Shown here: piece after piece, positions 26,670 through 35,597 of the stretch | Numbering within the stretch: position 1 is the stretch's first letter | Layout: the number at the start of each line of letters is the position of its first letter | DNA from: Patescibacteria group bacterium | GTDB lineage: Bacteria > Patescibacteriota > Saccharimonadia > Saccharimonadales > UBA4665 | Direction: 5' to 3' | DNA: 64,000 nucleotides | NCBI GenBank assembly: GCA_030271625.1 | Contig: JARXKN010000001.1 | Location: 310,001-374,000, forward strand | The notes under the pieces: model-generated | Database searches by the model: none | What the model was told of the DNA's origin: nothing | What the model saw: only the letters and a program-made list of their open reading frames with translations | Made by a program: the position numbers and the translations under genes

Positions 26670-27722
26670 ATGCTTACGTCAGCTTTGTTTTTTATGAGTG
26701 GAATACTAGGATTATTTGCGGCTACACCAGCCAGCACTAACTTTACCTTAAAGGATTACGACTTTGGTAATGGCGGCGCCACCAGTACCAGTAGTTCCTA
26801 TAACTTAAACGGTACGGTGGGCAGTCAAAGCGGGGCTAGTCCGGCTAACGGCGTGACCATCTTAAATCCTGGTGAAAAGTCGACTCAAAATGCCAACGTC
26901 CCCCCGGCCGCAACACTGACTAACCCCAACAATACCTATAATAAGCTGCATCTAGTAATCAGTACGGGTGGTAATCCATCCGATACTCGTTACGCCATAG
27001 CGATTAGTAGTGACGGTTTTAGTACTACGAAATACATCCAAGCTGATAACAGTCCAGGGAGCAGTCTAACCATCAGTAACTATCAGACCTACGTACAGTG
27101 GGGCAGTGGTAGCGGTTTTGATATTCTAGGTTTACTGCCGAGCACTACCTATGCCGTTAAAGTCAGTGCCTATCAAGGTGCCTTTACCGCCAGCGGCTTC
27201 GGTCCGGCGTCGACGGCAGTAGCTACGCAAGCACCGTCCGTGAGTTTTTCGGTTGCAACCACTTCCAATAATACGCCGCCCTTTAATGTAAATTTCTCCA
27301 GTCTGGCGGCCGGATCGGTCTTTACCGCTAGTTCTAATGCGCTCGTAACGCTGACAACTAATGCCGTATTTGGCGGTGGTGTCTATATTCAAGATAATAA
27401 CGCCGGCCTAAAAAGTACGACCGCCAACTACACTATCACCTCCGCTACAGCAGATCTTGGTGTTGCCGCTAGCGGCTATGGCGGCCAAGTCTCGACACTC
27501 GGTCAAACCAGTGGTGGGCCGTTCACAGCCGTTGCCCCATACAGTGGTGCGGGCAATAATGTCGGCCAGCTTAGTACCAGTCTGCAGCAGATTTTGGGCT
27601 TAACTAGTCCAATCACCGTTGGAACTGCTCAAATTAAATTTATGGCTAAGACCGCGACCACTACACCAGCAGCGACCGATTACACCGATACGGAGACAAT
27701 TGTCGCAGCTATGACATTTTAG
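26670..27722 (+). CDS. secreted surface protein with C-terminal domain shared with the next protein
   Basis: 350 residues from the ATG at 26670 (a GTG two codons upstream is possible). Signal peptide ~1-20 (MLTSALFFMSGILGLFAATP). The mature chain starts with FTLKDYDFGNGGATSTSSSY, a pattern seen at the start of CPR surface proteins, then a fibronectin-like segment ending TYAVKVSAY (~155-165). The C-terminal ~120 residues, with QDNNAGLKSTTANYTI and TPAATDYTDTETI at the extreme end, are paralogous to the C-terminus of the protein at 27822. No membrane anchor is visible, so attachment must be non-covalent or via partners. Confidence 0.75.
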   Translation: MLTSALFFMSGILGLFAATPASTNFTLKDYDFGNGGATSTSSSYNLNGTVGSQSGASPANGVTILNPGEKSTQNANVPPAATLTNPNNTYNKLHLVISTGGNPSDTRYAIAISSDGFSTTKYIQADNSPGSSLTISNYQTYVQWGSGSGFDILGLLPSTTYAVKVSAYQGAFTASGFGPASTAVATQAPSVSFSVATTSNNTPPFNVNFSSLAAGSVFTASSNALVTLTTNAVFGGGVYIQDNNAGLKSTTANYTITSATADLGVAASGYGGQVSTLGQTSGGPFTAVAPYSGAGNNVGQLSTSLQQILGLTSPITVGTAQIKFMAKTATTTPAATDYTDTETIVAAMTF

Positions 27723-27724
27723 GC

Positions 27725-27753
27725 TTGCAATACCCAAAGTGGTTATGCATAAT
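27725..27753 (+). promoter_or_regulatory. promoter of surface-protein gene at 27822
   Basis: TTGCAA (27725-27730), a 17-bp spacer and CATAAT (27748-27753). Predicted start ~27760, leaving a ~60-nt leader with an AGGAG Shine-Dalgarno before the ATG. In contrast to the leaderless neighbours, this gene looks arranged for strong translation. Confidence 0.65.
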
Positions 27754-27821
27754 AGCGTGTAAGTATTGCGCAAAAATACCAACAATGTAATTACAAAAAA
27801 TAAACCTCCCAGGAGAACACC

Positions 27822-28847
27822 ATGTACAAATCCCGTAAGATAGCCATCCGGACAGCCCTCGCTGCTCTCGCGGTAGCTATCGTGTCCCCGGCTATTCTAG
27901 CTAGCATGGCCAGCGCCGCCTCACTATCCTCAGTAACGGTACGGTTTGACCGTATGAAAGTTAGTACACCAACCACTGGTACTGTTTGTGCTAAGCCAGC
28001 CAGTACCGCTACCGAAGCCTTTGTTAAGGTTACCTTCCCAACTGGTTACGCATTAGGTGCCTTTGGTACCTTTACAGTCAGCACAACCAACTTAGCCTGG
28101 CCGTCTGGTGCTGCTGCCTGGCCGAGCATTGCCACAGCCACGAATGTTACCGGACAAGTCGTAACTTTCCCTAGTGGTGACTTAACGGCCGCTACGCTGT
28201 ACTGTTTCAACTGGACTAACTCCGCCGCCGTCCAAGTGTCGGCTGCCGCCACCTCAAATAATGCTGGTGCGGTCGAAACCGACGCTGCCGGCCCGACTTT
28301 AATCGACTCAGCTCCTTATAGCACAGCTAGTATTGCCGACGACCAGATTGTTGTTACCGCTACCGTCCCGCAAGCTTTTAGTTTTGCGCTCAGTGGCACT
28401 ACAGATGCGCTTGGAACGTTAAGTAGCGGCACAGTGTCCGCCAGTCCTACACCACGAACGGTGACCATTAACACTAACGCCGCTGGCGGCTGGAGTGTCT
28501 GGGCTCAAGACAATAATGCTGGACTTAAGTCTATTACGGCCAATAAGACCATAGCCGCGATAGCTGGCAATACGACTCTGGTCGCGGGAACCGAGGGCTA
28601 CAACACTGGTGTTACCTCTACCAATGGTGGCGGCTCGGGTACGATTACCGTTGCTCCAACCTTTGTTGGCGGCGTGCTCGGTAAGGGTGGTGGCTTGGCT
28701 ACCGCGTTTAATACTTTGGCAACTGCTAACGGAACAGCTACTAACCACGTTTTAACCTTAACTAACAACGCGGCAGTTGCTGGATCAACCCCGGCAGCTA
28801 CCGACTACACCGACACGATTACAATCGTCGGTGCAGCAACCTTCTAA
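27822..28847 (+). CDS. secreted surface protein with WxL-like C-terminal domain
   Basis: 341 residues. Classic signal peptide with basic N-region and AXA-type cleavage (SMASAASL, ~residues 29-36). The mature protein is Thr/Ala/Ser-rich. The C-terminal half contains GGWSVWAQDNNAGLKS (~222-237) and ends TPAATDYTDTITIVGAATF; both stretches are matched by the preceding gene's product. The spacing of an early W-x-V motif and a final TYT-type beta strand is reminiscent of Gram-positive WxL wall-binding domains, but the match is by eye only. AGGAG lies before the start. Confidence 0.72.
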   Translation: MYKSRKIAIRTALAALAVAIVSPAILASMASAASLSSVTVRFDRMKVSTPTTGTVCAKPASTATEAFVKVTFPTGYALGAFGTFTVSTTNLAWPSGAAAWPSIATATNVTGQVVTFPSGDLTAATLYCFNWTNSAAVQVSAAATSNNAGAVETDAAGPTLIDSAPYSTASIADDQIVVTATVPQAFSFALSGTTDALGTLSSGTVSASPTPRTVTINTNAAGGWSVWAQDNNAGLKSITANKTIAAIAGNTTLVAGTEGYNTGVTSTNGGGSGTITVAPTFVGGVLGKGGGLATAFNTLATANGTATNHVLTLTNNAAVAGSTPAATDYTDTITIVGAATF

Positions 28848-28858
28848 CTAGTAAACAC

Positions 28859-28890
28859 AAGCGGTCTGGGATAGCTCGGCCGCTTTTGTT
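28859..28890 (+). terminator. intrinsic terminator after surface-protein gene
   Basis: AAGCGGTC (28859-28866) pairs with GGCCGCTT (28878-28885, one T-G pair), followed by TTGTT. The T-run merges with the TATACT -10 box (28890-28895) of the next gene, a very tight terminator-promoter arrangement. Confidence 0.75.
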
Positions 28891-28903
28891 ATACTTCGTG
28901 CAG

Positions 28904-29959
28904 ATGCAGATAAAAAAAGTAGGAGTTTGGTCTAGCTTAGGGGTGCTTATCATTAGTTTGCTGCTGCCAGCTGTTACTAGCGCTGCCAGCACGACCAGCC
29001 TGCCCGACGCTGGTCTATCCTTGGAAGTAAGTCCGTCGCCGATTGTACTGACTATAAAACCTGGTGAAAGTAAGTCAGTTGATGTCAAAATCTTTAATGC
29101 CGGTAGTGCGGCTGAGAATCTTAAAATTGGACTCCAGAATTTTTCTATAAACAAGTCCAATAGCACTGTTACACTTCAGAAAGGTGTGCCGCCAGAAGTC
29201 AGTGACTGGGTAAAATTTTCACTGGCTAACTTTTCTATTAAGTCCGGCGAAAGAATTACCGAAACCGTAACTATCAAGGTGCCAGCGTCGGCTGGCTTTA
29301 GCTACAACTTTGCGATGGTCATTAGTCGACAGACGCCGCCAAAGGCTGTGGCAGGGCAGTCGGCTGTAGTCGGATCAGTAGCCATCTTTACCCTGTTAAA
29401 TATCGATCGGCCAGACGCGGTGAGAAAACTAGTTGTTGATTCGCTTACCACTGATAAGCACTACTATGAATACCTGCCTGCGACCTTAAAGTTAAAGTTA
29501 AGGAATGACGGTAATTCACTACTACTACCGGGCGGTAATGCCTATATCCAACGCAAGGGTACCAGTGCCACGCCGATTTCAGTACTGGCGGTAAACCCTG
29601 GTAATTTGTACTTACTACCTGGTATAACCCGCGAGTATCAGTTTACTTGGAAAGATGGTTTACCAGCTTACGTGACCTCTCAAACCGCCATCAATGTGGC
29701 CCCGGAACGGCACCTGGAATGGAACTGGCGCAACTCACATTTTAGAATCGGCAAATATGTAGCCAAAGTGGTGATAGTGTACGACAATGGCCGACGGGAT
29801 GTTCCTGTCGAAACAGAAGTCAGCTTTTGGGTTTTGCCATGGAAATTGCTGCTCGGAATAACAGTTGGTTTTATAACGCTGCTGGTGGGCGTTGGTGCGA
29901 TTTTACGGTTAGTGTTTATGACCCTCAAACGTAATCGCTTTAAGTATCGTGCCAAGTAA
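28904..29959 (+). CDS. membrane-anchored Ig-like surface protein (DUF916/WxL-interacting-protein-like)
   Basis: 351 residues from the ATG at 28904; TATACT (28890-28895) is 8 nt upstream, so an upstream TTG start is rejected. Signal peptide ~1-30, two beta-sandwich regions, then one C-terminal TM (~318-340) and a basic tail RNRFKYRAK. The N-terminal region (LEVSPSPIVLTIKPGESKSV... N.G) is a cohesin/NEW3-like fold, and the overall plan equals DUF916-DUF3324 WxL-interacting proteins of Firmicutes: an exported Ig-like pair anchored in the membrane. It overlaps the next gene by 11 nt. Confidence 0.7.
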   Translation: MQIKKVGVWSSLGVLIISLLLPAVTSAASTTSLPDAGLSLEVSPSPIVLTIKPGESKSVDVKIFNAGSAAENLKIGLQNFSINKSNSTVTLQKGVPPEVSDWVKFSLANFSIKSGERITETVTIKVPASAGFSYNFAMVISRQTPPKAVAGQSAVVGSVAIFTLLNIDRPDAVRKLVVDSLTTDKHYYEYLPATLKLKLRNDGNSLLLPGGNAYIQRKGTSATPISVLAVNPGNLYLLPGITREYQFTWKDGLPAYVTSQTAINVAPERHLEWNWRNSHFRIGKYVAKVVIVYDNGRRDVPVETEVSFWVLPWKLLLGITVGFITLLVGVGAILRLVFMTLKRNRFKYRAK

Positions 29960-31001
29960 GCGCCACCTGCTTGCGTTGGGCGCTATCGTCGGCGTGTTGC
30001 TAGCTCCGGCCGTCACAAATCACCAGGTTGCAGCCGCTATACCCGAGCCAGCAACTATGACCGTTTCACCGGCGCTTTTGACTGCCCAAGTTGGGACTAA
30101 ACAAAGCCAAACTACAATTGCTGTCAGCGTTCGTAACGGCTACGATACACCGATTACGGTGAAGGCAAATTTGAACGGTTTTGACATTCGTAATAATGCG
30201 CTGGTGCCGGCTAAAACTGCCGAAGCAGCACTGACGAAAGTGGTTACCATTAATCCGTCAGAAATAACCATTCCGGCTCACAGTTCAAAGAATATTACTG
30301 TCCAAATTAACGACGATGCTAGTTTGTCGCCAGGTGGACATTATTTATCACTTTTGATTTCTCAACTAACCGCAACGAGCGATACCAGCACACCGCAGTT
30401 GTCGCTTAAAACGGCCGTTAGCGCCACTATCTACGTCATAAAAGAAGATGGTGCTATCCGCAGTTTGCAAGTTACTAACCTTCATGCCAAGCACAGTATT
30501 TTTAGCTTGCCAACGACGGCTGATATTACCTTTTTTAATAACGGTAATGTGGTGGTAGTGCCACGGAGTGTGGTGCAGATTGGAACGGCAGCTACTGGTA
30601 GTATTGCAGCCCAAGCAGTGCTGAATCAAGACTCCGTACCCCTGTATCCCGGTTCACGGGTTACGCTGCAGGCACCACTGCAACGTATCGATAAAATCTC
30701 AGGCATTGGCCGCGTGTCACTAGTTGCCCATTACCGGGCCGATGGTCAGGAGCTCACTAAATCAGCTCAAATCTCATTCTGGTATATTCCCAAAAAAATT
30801 GTCGTCGCGGGCATATTTTTGCTAGCCATTGTGGCAGTTTTGGGCGCGCCGACTAGCCGCCAATGGATACTGACGTGGCATCGCCAGCGGCATCGCCGCC
30901 GACCGAGCGCTTTTGTGGCGCCGACTGCGGATGATATTGCAAAAAGCAAGCTCGCTGCCACCTCTGTAAGAAAGAAATCTTCGCGACGTATTTCGTTGTA
31001 A
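29949..31001 (+). CDS. second membrane-anchored Ig-like surface protein (paralogue of preceding)
   Basis: 350 residues. Signal peptide (ALGAIVGVLLAPAV, ~8-21), then MTVSPALLTAQVGTKQSQ similar in plan to the previous protein, a beta-rich ectodomain, a C-terminal TM (~277-296) and an Arg/His-rich cytoplasmic tail (WHRQRHRRRPS). Overlapping starts suggest co-translation with the preceding gene, so the two may form a heteromeric membrane receptor for the secreted proteins upstream (inference). Confidence 0.7.
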   Translation: MPSKRHLLALGAIVGVLLAPAVTNHQVAAAIPEPATMTVSPALLTAQVGTKQSQTTIAVSVRNGYDTPITVKANLNGFDIRNNALVPAKTAEAALTKVVTINPSEITIPAHSSKNITVQINDDASLSPGGHYLSLLISQLTATSDTSTPQLSLKTAVSATIYVIKEDGAIRSLQVTNLHAKHSIFSLPTTADITFFNNGNVVVVPRSVVQIGTAATGSIAAQAVLNQDSVPLYPGSRVTLQAPLQRIDKISGIGRVSLVAHYRADGQELTKSAQISFWYIPKKIVVAGIFLLAIVAVLGAPTSRQWILTWHRQRHRRRPSAFVAPTADDIAKSKLAATSVRKKSSRRISL

Positions 31002-31092
31002 CGCTGTTTTTAAATTTTTGATAGCAGCCTACGCTGGTAACCCTGTGGATAAGCTTGAGCATTATAGGGAAATTTAGTATAATAATAGGTAA

Positions 31093-34000
31093 ATGAAACC
31101 GTGGAAAATAAAAAGCAGTCTCGGGTTAGTCTTTGCTTTGTTTTTTGTATTTATTACAACCGTTTCCACGAGTGCTGCCATTAACCCCCAAATCAATTTT
31201 CAGGGTAAGATAACAAACCCTGATGGCACTAATCTTACCAACGGCAGTTACAGTATACGATTTCGCCTTTACAGCGACCCCAGCCTCGATGGTGCTAACG
31301 CCTGTTCGGCCAATACCTGTATGTGGGAGGAGACCAAATCAGTCACTCTGAACGATGGTATCTTCCAGACTTCGCTCGGTGACACTACTACCTTACCGGG
31401 CAGTGTAGATTTTAATAATTCAGCAATTTACCTCGGTATTAAGGTAGCGACTGATTCCGAAATGACACCCCGAGTACGCTTTACTGCCAGCCCCTATGCC
31501 TTCAACTCTGACAAGGTCGGAGGTTTTACGGCCGCTCAGCTAGTGCAGCTAACTCCTGCCAGCCAACAGTCCGGAACCATTAACGTCAGCGGATCGATTA
31601 CGACGGCCGCCGCCGCTTTCATTCAGGGCGCAGCCACACTTGGCTCAACTACAGGAAACGGTCAACTGAAATTCTTGGATGGCACGGCCGACGGCTTTAG
31701 TGGCACGATTCAGCTCGGCGGCACACTGAGTGCCAGCCAAACCTTTACCTTGCCAACCAGCGGCGGTGCAATCTGCGTGAGCACACCAAACAACTGTAAC
31801 TACCAAACTGCTGGCTCCTACGAAACCACCACCGGCACCGATTTTGTTCGTAACCAAAATGGTAGTGCTCAAACCACTGCCAACTTCTGGATTTCCGGTT
31901 CGGGCCGAGCTGACACTAGCTTGTTAGCGCCCAGTCTTGATGCCGCAGCTATCGGCACGCTCAGCATTGGTACTGGCACTGCAAATGCACTGAGTATTTC
32001 AAAAACGGGCGTAACAACGACGATAAACGGTAGCTTGACAGTCACCCAAGCCAGTACCTTCAACGGCAGTGTAAGCATTTCTGGAACCAACACCCTAACG
32101 GTCGGCACCGGAGCCACGAGCCTCGGCGGCACCTTAGCGGTAACAGGAACAACAACCCTGACTGGAGCATTAACCGCCGACGGTGGAATAACTGATACGG
32201 GTGCCTTCAGCCAAACCGGAACCGGTACCTTTGGAACGGGAACTGGTGCAGTATCACTCAACGGTGCAACCGCCATAACAGGGACTAACACGCTTACGGT
32301 TGGCACCGGGGCTACATCATTTGGCGGGTCATTGACTGTGACCGGCATAACCACGCTGAGCGGCGGTTCCAGCATCACCGGCGCTACTACCATCAACACT
32401 ACTGGTACAGCCACCACAGCTATTGGCAATGCCACCGGAACGTTTGCCTTAGCCTCTTCAGCTTTAAATGTTTCTACTACCGGAGCTGTGAGTGGCGTAA
32501 CGACGCTATCAGCTTCCAGTACTATCACTGGCTTAACTCTCAACGGTACGTCAGGTATTAACACCGGCGCAGTTGCCGGCACGCAGCGTATTGATGCCTC
32601 TGGTAATTTAGTAAACATTGGTAATCTAACCACCAGTGGCGCTTCGACGTTTACCACCACTGGTGCAACCGGTATCACTATCAAGCCAGGGTCTGAAGCT
32701 GCTGCCGCTTTCCTGTTGCAAAATGCGGCTGGCGTTAGCTTCATTGCTTTCAACTCCACAACCAGCACTTTAAACGTCGGGCCGACTACAGCGAATGCCG
32801 GTACGCTTAATGTGGCTACCGGGGCCGCTGTACAGGCCGTTACTATCGGCTCCACAAACACTACTAGCAGTACGACGATTCAAGGTGGAGCAACCGGTTC
32901 TATTAACATTGGATCAACCGGCAGCTCAACACTTTCAAGCACGGTAAACATCGGTTCGACGAGTAACGCAACAGGTACGCAGATAGTTGTAATAGGTTCA
33001 AACGCCAATGCTGCCAACTCGGTCGATATCGATGCTGGTAATACCGGCTTAGTCCAAATTGGCGACTCTACCACCGCCCACACCATTAAAATTGGTACGG
33101 CTGGAACGGCTGCCGGTAGCGCTCAAAATATTACCATTGGCTCCAACACTACTACTACTGCCAGCCTACTGACGTTGCAGGGCAGTACAATCAGCACCAC
33201 AAATGGCAATACTGGCGTAGTGATTGGTGGTGGCTTTTCTACTTCCGACACTAACTTAACAGCATTAACCCTCGACAGTACTTCAACCCTCTCAGAAGTC
33301 GCTAATACCTGTTCGGCAACGGTAAATAACGGCGCCTTGTATTACAACTCCAACGCTGGTTCAAACGCTATCCGCGCCTGTGTGGCCGGCGGCTGGGAAG
33401 ATCTGATATCAACAGCTGGTGCTTTCTTTACGTTCTTTGGGGTCGTGCCCGATAGTGGTACCGTACCCGGTGATACCCAAGCATTATCAACCGCTGCTGT
33501 CAGCGGACCTTGTCGAGTTTATTGGGCAACCGCAACAACCGTCGGTGTCCAAGCCTGTACGGCTTATTCGGGTGGACGCAAGGTTTCAGTGACGGCGAAT
33601 ACTTCAATAACAATTACCACTACCAACAATGCCTTTACCCACATTTGTTTAAGTGGTACCAACAACCAACCGGTTGCCTCAACGGCTTCCACTACTGAAT
33701 CTGCTAACCTTACTACCTCCTCGTTCCCGAATGCCAACTCGCCAATTGTTTGTTTAGCCGATGTTAAAACTAGCGCCAGTGCCATTAACGCTATTTACGA
33801 CACCAGGGTATTTACAACCACAACTAAAGAATTTGGCTATGCCGCCGCCGCCTTGCCGCTTGGGGTTATGGTCAAGCCAGATACCGTTAACGCCAATAGA
33901 TTAGCACTGCCAGGTACGGTAGCTACCGGCTTTATGCGTGGCGTGGTCGTCGCCAGTAACGGTGCGGCCTGGGCCTCGGGTGGTCCAAACGTTATTATTG

Positions 34001-34221
34001 CCACTGGCGGTCTGGCGTCTATCAAAGCCACTGCCGGTACCATGGCGGCCGCTAGTACAGTACAGAACAGTACTACCACTAGCGGCTATGCAATTACTGT
34101 AGCCGCCGCCAGTGCCATGGCCTATGGCAACCTTGGTATTGCCCAGAACTCATTCTTTACCACCTGTACGACAGCGGCTACCTGTACTGGCAGTCTGCTG
34201 ACTGATTTGCGCTTGCGATAA
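31093..34221 (+). CDS. giant secreted repeat protein (fibre/adhesin-like)
   Basis: 1042 residues. Signal peptide ~1-29. Residues ~30-150 form a CPR-typical N-terminal module beginning INPQINFQGKITNPDGTNL and ending TASPYAFNSDKVGG. Then ~500 residues of degenerate Thr/Gly/Ala/Ser repeats built on TLTVGTGATSxGG and related units (for example around 32,090 and 32,285), suggestive of a beta-helical or fibrous stalk. The C-terminal ~230 residues form a different, Cys-containing globular region. A tail-fibre-like surface adhesin is the best guess. TATAAT (31078-31083) is 9 nt before the ATG. The next gene starts 4 nt after the stop. Confidence 0.78.
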   Translation: MKPWKIKSSLGLVFALFFVFITTVSTSAAINPQINFQGKITNPDGTNLTNGSYSIRFRLYSDPSLDGANACSANTCMWEETKSVTLNDGIFQTSLGDTTTLPGSVDFNNSAIYLGIKVATDSEMTPRVRFTASPYAFNSDKVGGFTAAQLVQLTPASQQSGTINVSGSITTAAAAFIQGAATLGSTTGNGQLKFLDGTADGFSGTIQLGGTLSASQTFTLPTSGGAICVSTPNNCNYQTAGSYETTTGTDFVRNQNGSAQTTANFWISGSGRADTSLLAPSLDAAAIGTLSIGTGTANALSISKTGVTTTINGSLTVTQASTFNGSVSISGTNTLTVGTGATSLGGTLAVTGTTTLTGALTADGGITDTGAFSQTGTGTFGTGTGAVSLNGATAITGTNTLTVGTGATSFGGSLTVTGITTLSGGSSITGATTINTTGTATTAIGNATGTFALASSALNVSTTGAVSGVTTLSASSTITGLTLNGTSGINTGAVAGTQRIDASGNLVNIGNLTTSGASTFTTTGATGITIKPGSEAAAAFLLQNAAGVSFIAFNSTTSTLNVGPTTANAGTLNVATGAAVQAVTIGSTNTTSSTTIQGGATGSINIGSTGSSTLSSTVNIGSTSNATGTQIVVIGSNANAANSVDIDAGNTGLVQIGDSTTAHTIKIGTAGTAAGSAQNITIGSNTTTTASLLTLQGSTISTTNGNTGVVIGGGFSTSDTNLTALTLDSTSTLSEVANTCSATVNNGALYYNSNAGSNAIRACVAGGWEDLISTAGAFFTFFGVVPDSGTVPGDTQALSTAAVSGPCRVYWATATTVGVQACTAYSGGRKVSVTANTSITITTTNNAFTHICLSGTNNQPVASTASTTESANLTTSSFPNANSPIVCLADVKTSASAINAIYDTRVFTTTTKEFGYAAAALPLGVMVKPDTVNANRLALPGTVATGFMRGVVVASNGAAWASGGPNVIIATGGLASIKATAGTMAAASTVQNSTTTSGYAITVAAASAMAYGNLGIAQNSFFTTCTTAATCTGSLLTDLRLR

Positions 34222-34225
34222 ACCT

Positions 34226-34780
34226 ATGGCCGGGCGACAAAAATATACGATTCAAAAAAAGTACGGCCAGGGGAGTAACTCTCGCTATCTCCTAAGCCTC
34301 GGATTAATAATCGTCTTAGTTTGCGCTATTGGCGGCTTTGCAGTTTATAAGAGTAATCAACCAAAAGGGCCAATTCCCCGCGCCATCAAACAGCAGATTG
34401 CTTTTGTTATTTTCTATCCTAGCATTACAACTGGGGCCGCTGTTAATGCAGCCAGTTTCAAGTATGACACCCAAAGTAAGTTGCTTAGTTACGTCGTTAG
34501 CTATAGCGGAAGGTCGATAACGGTGGCCGAACAAGCGACGCCCCAAAACTTTATTGATATTCCCCAAGCCTACGATAAACTGACCGAAAGTTTAAACGAA
34601 TTTGCTAGTTTTGATTCTTATTACGACAAAGTATCACTTGTCCATCCCAAAGAGTTTAATGGGCAACAATCAGCGGTTATGAATAGCAAGGGAACACTTA
34701 TCTTTGCGCATCCAACCAATGGCGATCTCACAGTCGATCAATGGAAAAAGTTGTTCAACGGCTTTGAAATTATCCGCTAA
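34226..34780 (+). CDS. single-TM protein with extracytoplasmic domain, unknown
   Basis: 184 residues. A basic N-terminus is followed by one TM helix (LLSLGLIIVLVCAIGGFAVY, ~19-38), then an ectodomain of about 145 residues without recognised motifs. It is 4 nt behind the giant repeat protein and is surely co-transcribed, so it may help assemble or anchor that fibre (inference). The gene ends 11 nt before the convergent GH25-like gene. Confidence 0.65.
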   Translation: MAGRQKYTIQKKYGQGSNSRYLLSLGLIIVLVCAIGGFAVYKSNQPKGPIPRAIKQQIAFVIFYPSITTGAAVNAASFKYDTQSKLLSYVVSYSGRSITVAEQATPQNFIDIPQAYDKLTESLNEFASFDSYYDKVSLVHPKEFNGQQSAVMNSKGTLIFAHPTNGDLTVDQWKKLFNGFEIIR

Positions 34781-34790
34781 ACTCCTTACT

Positions 34791-35597
34791 TTAAATACAG
34801 GAGTAGTTGTAGTCTAGACGATTGGCAACATACTGAGTAAGGGTAACTTTGCCGCCAGTGGTGAGGGCGGGTAGTGAACAGTTGGCCTGAGCACCTTTTT
34901 GGGAAGTAGCACCCGCCAACCAGCTGGAAAGGTAGTTGAGGTTGCTAGTTGCAGTAGTTTGACCGACAATTTCGCCCCACTGGTAGCCAGTAGAATAGAG
35001 GCCAACAGCTTTGACGTTAATTGACTTAAAGTAAGCGACCATACCTTCCAAATCGGCTGCATTAGCGACCTTGTTAGTTTCCCAGCTGTTGGTAGTCTCG
35101 ACATCTAACCACCAGGTATAGCTTGACGGGCTTATGACATCGCGGATGGTGGCATCATCGTTGGCTTTTGCATAGCCGTAAATGTAGGCGCAAGCTGCCG
35201 TGTCGTCATGATGACAAGTGCCATAGGGGTTAGTGATAGCTGTGCCATTGTAGCTGTTAGAATCAGGCCAAAAGGTTCCGGCTAGCCCCGGGTTAGCAGT
35301 ATTAACGTAAATGGCTGCCTTGTCCTGCACGGTGGTACCCTTAGACTGCTGGGCCCACGATAGCTCGCTAGTAAAACAAGGGTTGCTATTGTTTGCTAGG
35401 CCGTTGTTTAAGCCGACAATACCAAAAGCCTGGCCAGTAGGGTAGGGCTTGTTACATTGGGGCCACGAGATGTCATTACCGAGTGGAATGGTGGGCCCAG
35501 AACCGGGTTTAGCGGCAAAGACGTTGCCTAATCCGGCCAGCCCAAATACACCTATTACAGCACTTATAACTAATAGTCGGGACAGAGGCTTCTGCAT
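34791..35597 (-). CDS. secreted glycoside hydrolase family 25/DUF1906-like protein
   Basis: 268 residues with a signal peptide (LLVISAVIGVFGLAGLGNVFA, ~8-28). The mature part begins with NDISWPQCN, has YVNTANPG at mid-chain and WWLDVETTNSW (~167-177) with an acidic pair in a TIM-barrel-strand context, then VGLYSTGYQWGEI. This resembles DUF1906/GH25-type lysozyme-like domains of Actinobacteria. Several Cys residues suggest disulfides. Possible peptidoglycan-degrading or wall-binding role. TATAAT on the minus strand (35604-35609) is 6 nt before the ATG. Confidence 0.75.
   Translation of the reverse strand: MQKPLSRLLVISAVIGVFGLAGLGNVFAAKPGSGPTIPLGNDISWPQCNKPYPTGQAFGIVGLNNGLANNSNPCFTSELSWAQQSKGTTVQDKAAIYVNTANPGLAGTFWPDSNSYNGTAITNPYGTCHHDDTAACAYIYGYAKANDDATIRDVISPSSYTWWLDVETTNSWETNKVANAADLEGMVAYFKSINVKAVGLYSTGYQWGEIVGQTTATSNLNYLSSWLAGATSQKGAQANCSLPALTTGGKVTLTQYVANRLDYNYSCI

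Follow-up and report, generated by a model that had tools for sequence, protein, structure and literature searches.

Analysis of the window, a 64,000-nucleotide stretch of DNA from an ultrasmall bacterium of the Patescibacteria, revealed a locus of six open reading frames (A to F), all on the + strand between 26664/26670 and 34780, at the positions given by the earlier note, and bordered on both sides by genes on the opposite strand (Table 1). The likely start codons of A and C are ATG 26670 and ATG 28904, respectively. A scan for promoters and terminators gave results at or below chance and thus no evidence for an operon, and searches of PHROGs and NCBIfam returned no meaningful match. As the earlier note had recognized, A and B have a C-terminal region in common (143 columns, 40% identity, E=2e-12), referred to here as CT2, while the two overlapping genes that follow were rightly described as encoding membrane-anchored Ig-like proteins: C and D are homologous from end to end (23% identity, E=3e-8), and in both a signal peptide precedes ~270 residues in beta domains, followed by a TM helix at the C-terminus with a basic tail.

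Table 1. Features of the A to F locus, with positions in the window
Feature	Position	Strand	Description
A	26664/26670-27722	+	352 aa; secreted, C-terminal CT2 domain; signal peptide by eye and hydropathy
CT2 domain of A	27201..27719	+	last ~173 residues; terminal sequence YTDTETIVAAMTF
B	27822..28847	+	341 aa; secreted; BslA-like N-terminal domain and C-terminal CT2 domain
CT2 domain of B	28314..28844	+	terminal sequence YTDTITIVGAATF
C	28886/28904-29959	+	357 aa; WxLIP homologue with signal peptide, PGBD-like and HBD-like domains, TM helix, and basic tail
PGBD (DUF916)-like domain of C	29021..29401	+	without NQIDKxxxYFDLK segment
HBD (DUF3324)-like domain of C	29429..29833	+	
TM helix of C	29840..29908	+	helix 319-356 in AlphaFold model, and hydropathy
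D	29949..31001	+	350 aa; second WxLIP homologue; 11-bp overlap with C
E	31093..34221	+	1042 aa; secreted, fibrous, Thr/Gly/Ala-rich; conserved N-terminal domain
F	34226..34780	+	184 aa; small single-TM protein

The earlier description of E as a fibrous repeat protein holds in that its sequence is visibly repetitive, but no tandem repeat array was called in the DNA. The portion of E common to relatives is its N-terminal domain (~20-170), and a gene with this domain lies at most three genes from the anchored gene in 14 of 32 class-level loci. F contains a single hydrophobic segment, close to the N-terminus, in agreement with its reading as a single-TM protein, and no relatives of it were detected in the loci compared. 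Downstream, a convergent gene (34791-35597, - strand) encodes a secreted protein of 268 aa that has no Pfam match and by eye appears glycoside-hydrolase-like (Rv2525c-type).

In searches with single proteins, Pfam family PF06030 matches D at E=5e-5, under the cut-off, while C has no PF06030 match and nothing useful in Pfam; a PDB sequence search with C alone returned nothing, and an HMM of nine Firmicutes WxLIP sequences matched neither protein singly. Within the anchored-protein family as a whole (A1, 47 Saccharibacterial members), WxLIP_PGBD (PF06030) matches 19 members, with a best E-value of 5.8e-10, several unrelated Ig-type Pfam families also match weakly, and PF11797 (DUF3324) is absent among the 25 families listed. 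Against the PDB, the A1 profile finds EfmWxLIP1 at 2.5e-6. Using as reference nine plasmid-encoded WxLIPs of Lactobacillales (annotated 'DUF916 and DUF3324' in eight cases and as a cell surface protein in one), hhalign aligned A1 at E=1.5e-17 over 248 columns across both Ig domains, compared with 0.036 for the reversed profile and a score reached by none of 60 column shuffles.

The AlphaFold model of C (pLDDT 90) carries helices at both ends, supporting the signal peptide and the C-terminal TM helix seen by hydropathy in C and D. When this model was compared with 350,542 PDB chains using Foldseek, the top three matches were E. faecium WxLIP (9i1y_A, 9i25_C, and 9i1y_B), one of which, 9i25_C, is labelled 'bound to long WxL'; CsuC-type and CFA/I pilus chaperones and other Ig proteins came next. 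The hhalign and Foldseek alignments both span the two domains, placing an HBD (DUF3324) after the PGBD in C. By profile and by fold, C and D are homologous to the WxL-interacting protein (WxLIP; DUF916+DUF3324+TM) of gut Firmicutes, beyond the mere likeness of layout from which they had been called DUF916-like. They resemble the described WxLIPs (DUF916/PF06030, DUF3324/PF11797, and TM; PMC10599100; PDB 9i1y and 9i25) in the signal peptide, the order of the Ig domains, the C-terminal TM helix, a length of ~350 aa, and their location next to genes for secreted proteins. They differ in being present as two copies in the locus, in having CT2 rather than WxL as partner, and in missing the NQIDKxxxYFDLK segment, with 10 residues where all nine Firmicutes WxLIPs have 21. 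A search beside C and D for at least two WxL genes found none, the two secreted CT2 genes there being both without PF13731. Since the segment and the WxL neighbors are missing, C and D are not classed as standard WxLIPs; they are a WxLIP subfamily that has neither.

By contrast with the anchored proteins, the secreted proteins would not count as WxL domain proteins by any membership test applied to their sequences, contrary to what had been proposed for their C-terminal domains. PF13731 (WxL) has no match in the genome itself, it is not listed for any of the 57 and 62 relatives in the A2 and A4 sets (in the second, among the 25 families listed out of 29), and two W-x-L strings within the last 240 residues occur in just one of 153 CT2 proteins. 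The CT2 set comprises 132 C-terminal domains, with a profile iterated over class-level and phylum-level loci that matches A at E=2.3e-35 and B at E=1.5e-38; A has an orthologue at 68% in L034. In size and place (~160-190 aa, C-terminal, in secreted proteins beside a WxLIP), CT2 does agree with WxL, whose ~175-aa C-terminal domain likewise lies beside a WxLIP in the Csc clusters of Lactobacillales and Bacillales (PMC9772566). CT2 forms the extreme C-terminus of proteins of ~180 to 1712 aa, a range that recalls the small/large WxL division, as both kinds of protein are small (~350 aa) or, elsewhere in the phylum, large (900-1700 aa).

For Firmicutes WxL, the first search bait was a WxL-like consensus peptide, and annotated database proteins only were used afterwards. 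Against this set, CT2/A2 aligned over the last ~15-22 columns only (E=0.17 to 0.018), with the CT2 consensus TNAxxGY and AGxYxxxxxY where WxL has xGWxL and AxxYxTTLTW. The WxL proteins of Patescibacteria (E=1.4e-17 against Firmicutes WxL) in most cases carry Y, F, or a different residue in place of the second W, and CT2 matches them at E=1.7e-4 with a score of 33.5, restricted to the ~27 last columns. This score compares with at most 12.9 in 150 shuffles, none of which reaches it, and with 11-21 for unrelated families. The last strand of CT2 (AGxYxTTLTY) resembles that of WxL (AxxYxTTLTW) but is 6-8 residues longer, and a WxL HMM without the last strand shows no enrichment of CT2 among its top matches. 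A PDB sequence search found no WxL sequence that could serve as a structural yardstick. Because the score lies above noise yet covers ~27 columns only, homology is likely, and the most likely identity of CT2 from these profile comparisons is a WxL domain that has diverged strongly. The earlier reading of a WxL-like locus is thus partly supported.

The AlphaFold model of B (pLDDT 90.8) consists of two beta domains. With the whole protein rather than CT2 alone as the Foldseek query, WxL is absent from the best 50 matches, and integrin alpha and cohesin, which head them in two-domain alignments with a TM-score of ~0.2, were given no weight as evidence. The N-terminal domain of B (27822-28313) resembles YweA/BslA, with a profile E-value of 1e-4 and a Foldseek probability of 1.00 for 4bhu. 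It has in common with BslA/YweA, a Bacillus biofilm hydrophobin, the Ig fold, although BslA is a free one-domain protein, unlike B. A relationship between A1 and A2 was also considered, and the profile-profile comparison found them unrelated.

C-type proteins occur in 41 of 60 relatives, and among 241 genomes sampled across the Patescibacteria phylum the A1 profile matches 120 and the A2 profile 74. A CT2 gene lies at most two genes away on the same strand in 31 of 32 class-level loci, a count that is partly circular because A2 was seeded at class level, and in 31 of 34 phylum loci picked on A1 alone; among genes four or more away from the anchored gene, CT2 occurs in 2 of 374. The gene arrangement is therefore conserved in Saccharibacteria and further afield, and for the anchored half neither an unrelated fold nor an absence of the arrangement from relatives was found. 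PF13731 matches 14 of the 241 genomes at E<=1, four of them over the cut-off, and most of these loci have an A1-family gene nearby. The three A1-family neighbors of PF13731 genes that were tested at full length pass the PF06030 cut-off, as does the one in L124. A few Patescibacteria lineages hold true WxL genes in the place of CT2. These WxL-WxLIP clusters (L121, L123-L126, L128-L130, L132, and L133) resemble the present locus in belonging to the same phylum and in the closeness of this anchored family to secreted C-terminal beta domains, and differ in their PF13731-type domains, in a longer WxLIP segment, and, in some, in the presence of LysM.

The PGBD segment that lies between a conserved VxP and a conserved PG, and that is NQIDKxxxYFDLK in Firmicutes WxLIPs, is 21 residues long there, 15-27 residues in 16 Patescibacterial WxLIPs beside WxL, and 9-12 residues in 106 WxLIPs beside CT2 (exactly 10 in 101 of them), with zero overlap between the WxL-paired and CT2-paired lengths. 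The two genomes that hold both types of WxLIP fit the same rule, with 21 and 11 residues in G072 and 16 and 10 in G105. In a tree of WxLIPs, segment length corresponds to one or two ancient changes, with low support at the key split, so that a p-value for the association of length with partner does not represent 106 independent events.

As an explanation of the whole locus, we consider it reasonably probable that A to F form a Saccharibacterial surface cluster of the WxL/WxLIP type, in which CT2 docks, C and D anchor, and the secreted proteins are displayed non-covalently. From their sequences, C and D would be exported and held in the membrane by the C-terminal TM helix, presenting two Ig-like domains whose homologues in WxLIP are the PGBD and the HBD. 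A and B would likewise be exported, with differing N-terminal domains and CT2 at the C-terminus. By analogy with WxL, CT2 would most likely dock onto C and D at their PGBD, probably through a strand from the PGBD hairpin that would complete its beta-sandwich, in the way that Hassan et al. 2023 (PMC10599100) predicted for WxL. C and D would then hold A and B at the membrane or wall, and E may form a long fibre, produced along with the complex, that extends outward. Such a cluster would likely serve to display adhesive or coat proteins non-covalently, probably so that the cell can make contact with its host bacterium. Hassan et al. (PMC10599100) suggested that the WxLIP TM helix enters the host membrane; for C and D, the signal peptide, C-terminal TM helix, and basic tail make an anchor in the cell's own membrane the simpler reading. 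That attachment is independent of sortase, as had been suggested, is plausible for the locus because it contains no LPxTG protein or sortase gene. It does not extend to a genome without sortase, which is ruled out by five sortase genes (PF04203; L135-L139) elsewhere in the 1.15-Mb genome.

Three other explanations were weighed against this one. If CT2 were not homologous to WxL, another beta domain would have taken the WxL slot on WxLIP-type anchors, docking in the same or a similar way, and the last-strand motif would be convergent. The missing PF13731 match and paired motifs, the confinement of the likeness to the last strand, and the absence of the proposed WxL-contact segment from CT2-paired WxLIPs all agree with this. 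We nevertheless hold it to be rather unlikely, given that the motif order FG, TNAxxG[WY], AGxYxTTLT[YFW] matches end to end (with a full-length alignment that is not significant), that Y or F already replaces the second W in Patescibacterial WxL, and that the last-strand score is far over shuffles and unrelated families.

C and D could also be chaperone-like helpers in the folding or assembly of A and B (and of the fibre E), as CsuC is for CsuA/B pilins, and not a permanent anchor. The final YxDTxTV strand of CT2 recalls pilin C-termini, and the Csu and CFA/I chaperones directly follow WxLIP among the Foldseek matches of C. WxLIP ranks ahead of them, C and D have a TM helix, unlike periplasmic chaperones, and the locus contains no usher gene, which together make this role improbable. 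Still less probable is that these are generic Ig-like surface proteins that do not bind each other, with a neighborhood conserved for expression only: Ig-like folds are common and unrelated Ig-type families do match weakly, but WxLIP is the best match by two independent methods (hhalign and Foldseek), the pairing of CT2 with the anchor is kept across the phylum, and the partner type tracks the PGBD segment.

Nearly all descriptions of WxL proteins and WxLIPs come from Bacilli (PMC9772566, PMC10599100), and a literature search that excluded most subscription journals and preprints found no paper combining WxL with Saccharibacteria, WxL with Candidate Phyla Radiation, or DUF916 with Patescibacteria. 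In the present survey, roughly half of the Patescibacteria genomes sampled have WxLIP homologues; true WxL occurs in a few of them, and in the others the partner is substituted or strongly diverged. For host attachment in this phylum, type IV pili and unspecified close-range adhesins have been proposed (PMC12206443, PMC10633639), and Tn-seq of a cultured Saccharibacterium found fibronectin III, VCBS, and dockerin domains in envelope proteins that are essential (PMC10633639). The WxLIP-CT2 pairing probably fixes surface proteins to Patescibacteria cells. It is a tentative possibility, to which we give somewhat less than even weight, that it constitutes a modular, phylum-wide system of non-covalent display, in which WxLIP-type receptors bind an undescribed docking domain, CT2, on many small and giant secreted proteins, among them probably adhesins for holding the host cell. 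The outcome is a named set of surface proteins for knock-out and a natural comparison of the PGBD segment with partner type.

Several further arrangements were observed among the loci compared. LysM or LysM-like motifs lie C-terminal to the TM helix in WxLIPs near true WxL (L124:5977-7599, L129:7068-8462, L123, L125, and L133), with three LysM in L124 (E=1.7e-21), one in L129, and those of the other three found by simple motif. Were the TM helix a simple anchor, a LysM after it would lie on the cytoplasmic side although it is a wall-binding domain; these WxLIPs are thus a poor fit with a simple membrane anchor. CT2 and anchored genes occur a second time in the genome itself (L054, C6:284299-289636), as a more diverged set that adjoins mnmA- and alaS-like genes (identified by eye) and has the same place in many relatives. 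A third genomic site, at a contig end (L065:5577-7214, C10), has an A-type CT2 gene. Located 5' of it is a gene for a conserved single-TM protein of ~200 aa with SWxW at its end, of a family found beside A-type genes in ~15 loci; F was compared with this family and is unrelated to it. Giant secreted proteins of 1100-1700 aa that end in CT2 beside a WxLIP, like 'large WxL', occur in L058, L075, L079, L082, L088, L103, and L146. Finally, dockerin-like C-termini (e.g. DINSDGIVDLADFS) are found on secreted proteins adjoining a WxLIP homologue in L076:1178-1960, with similar ones in L079, L080, L081, L088, and L093.
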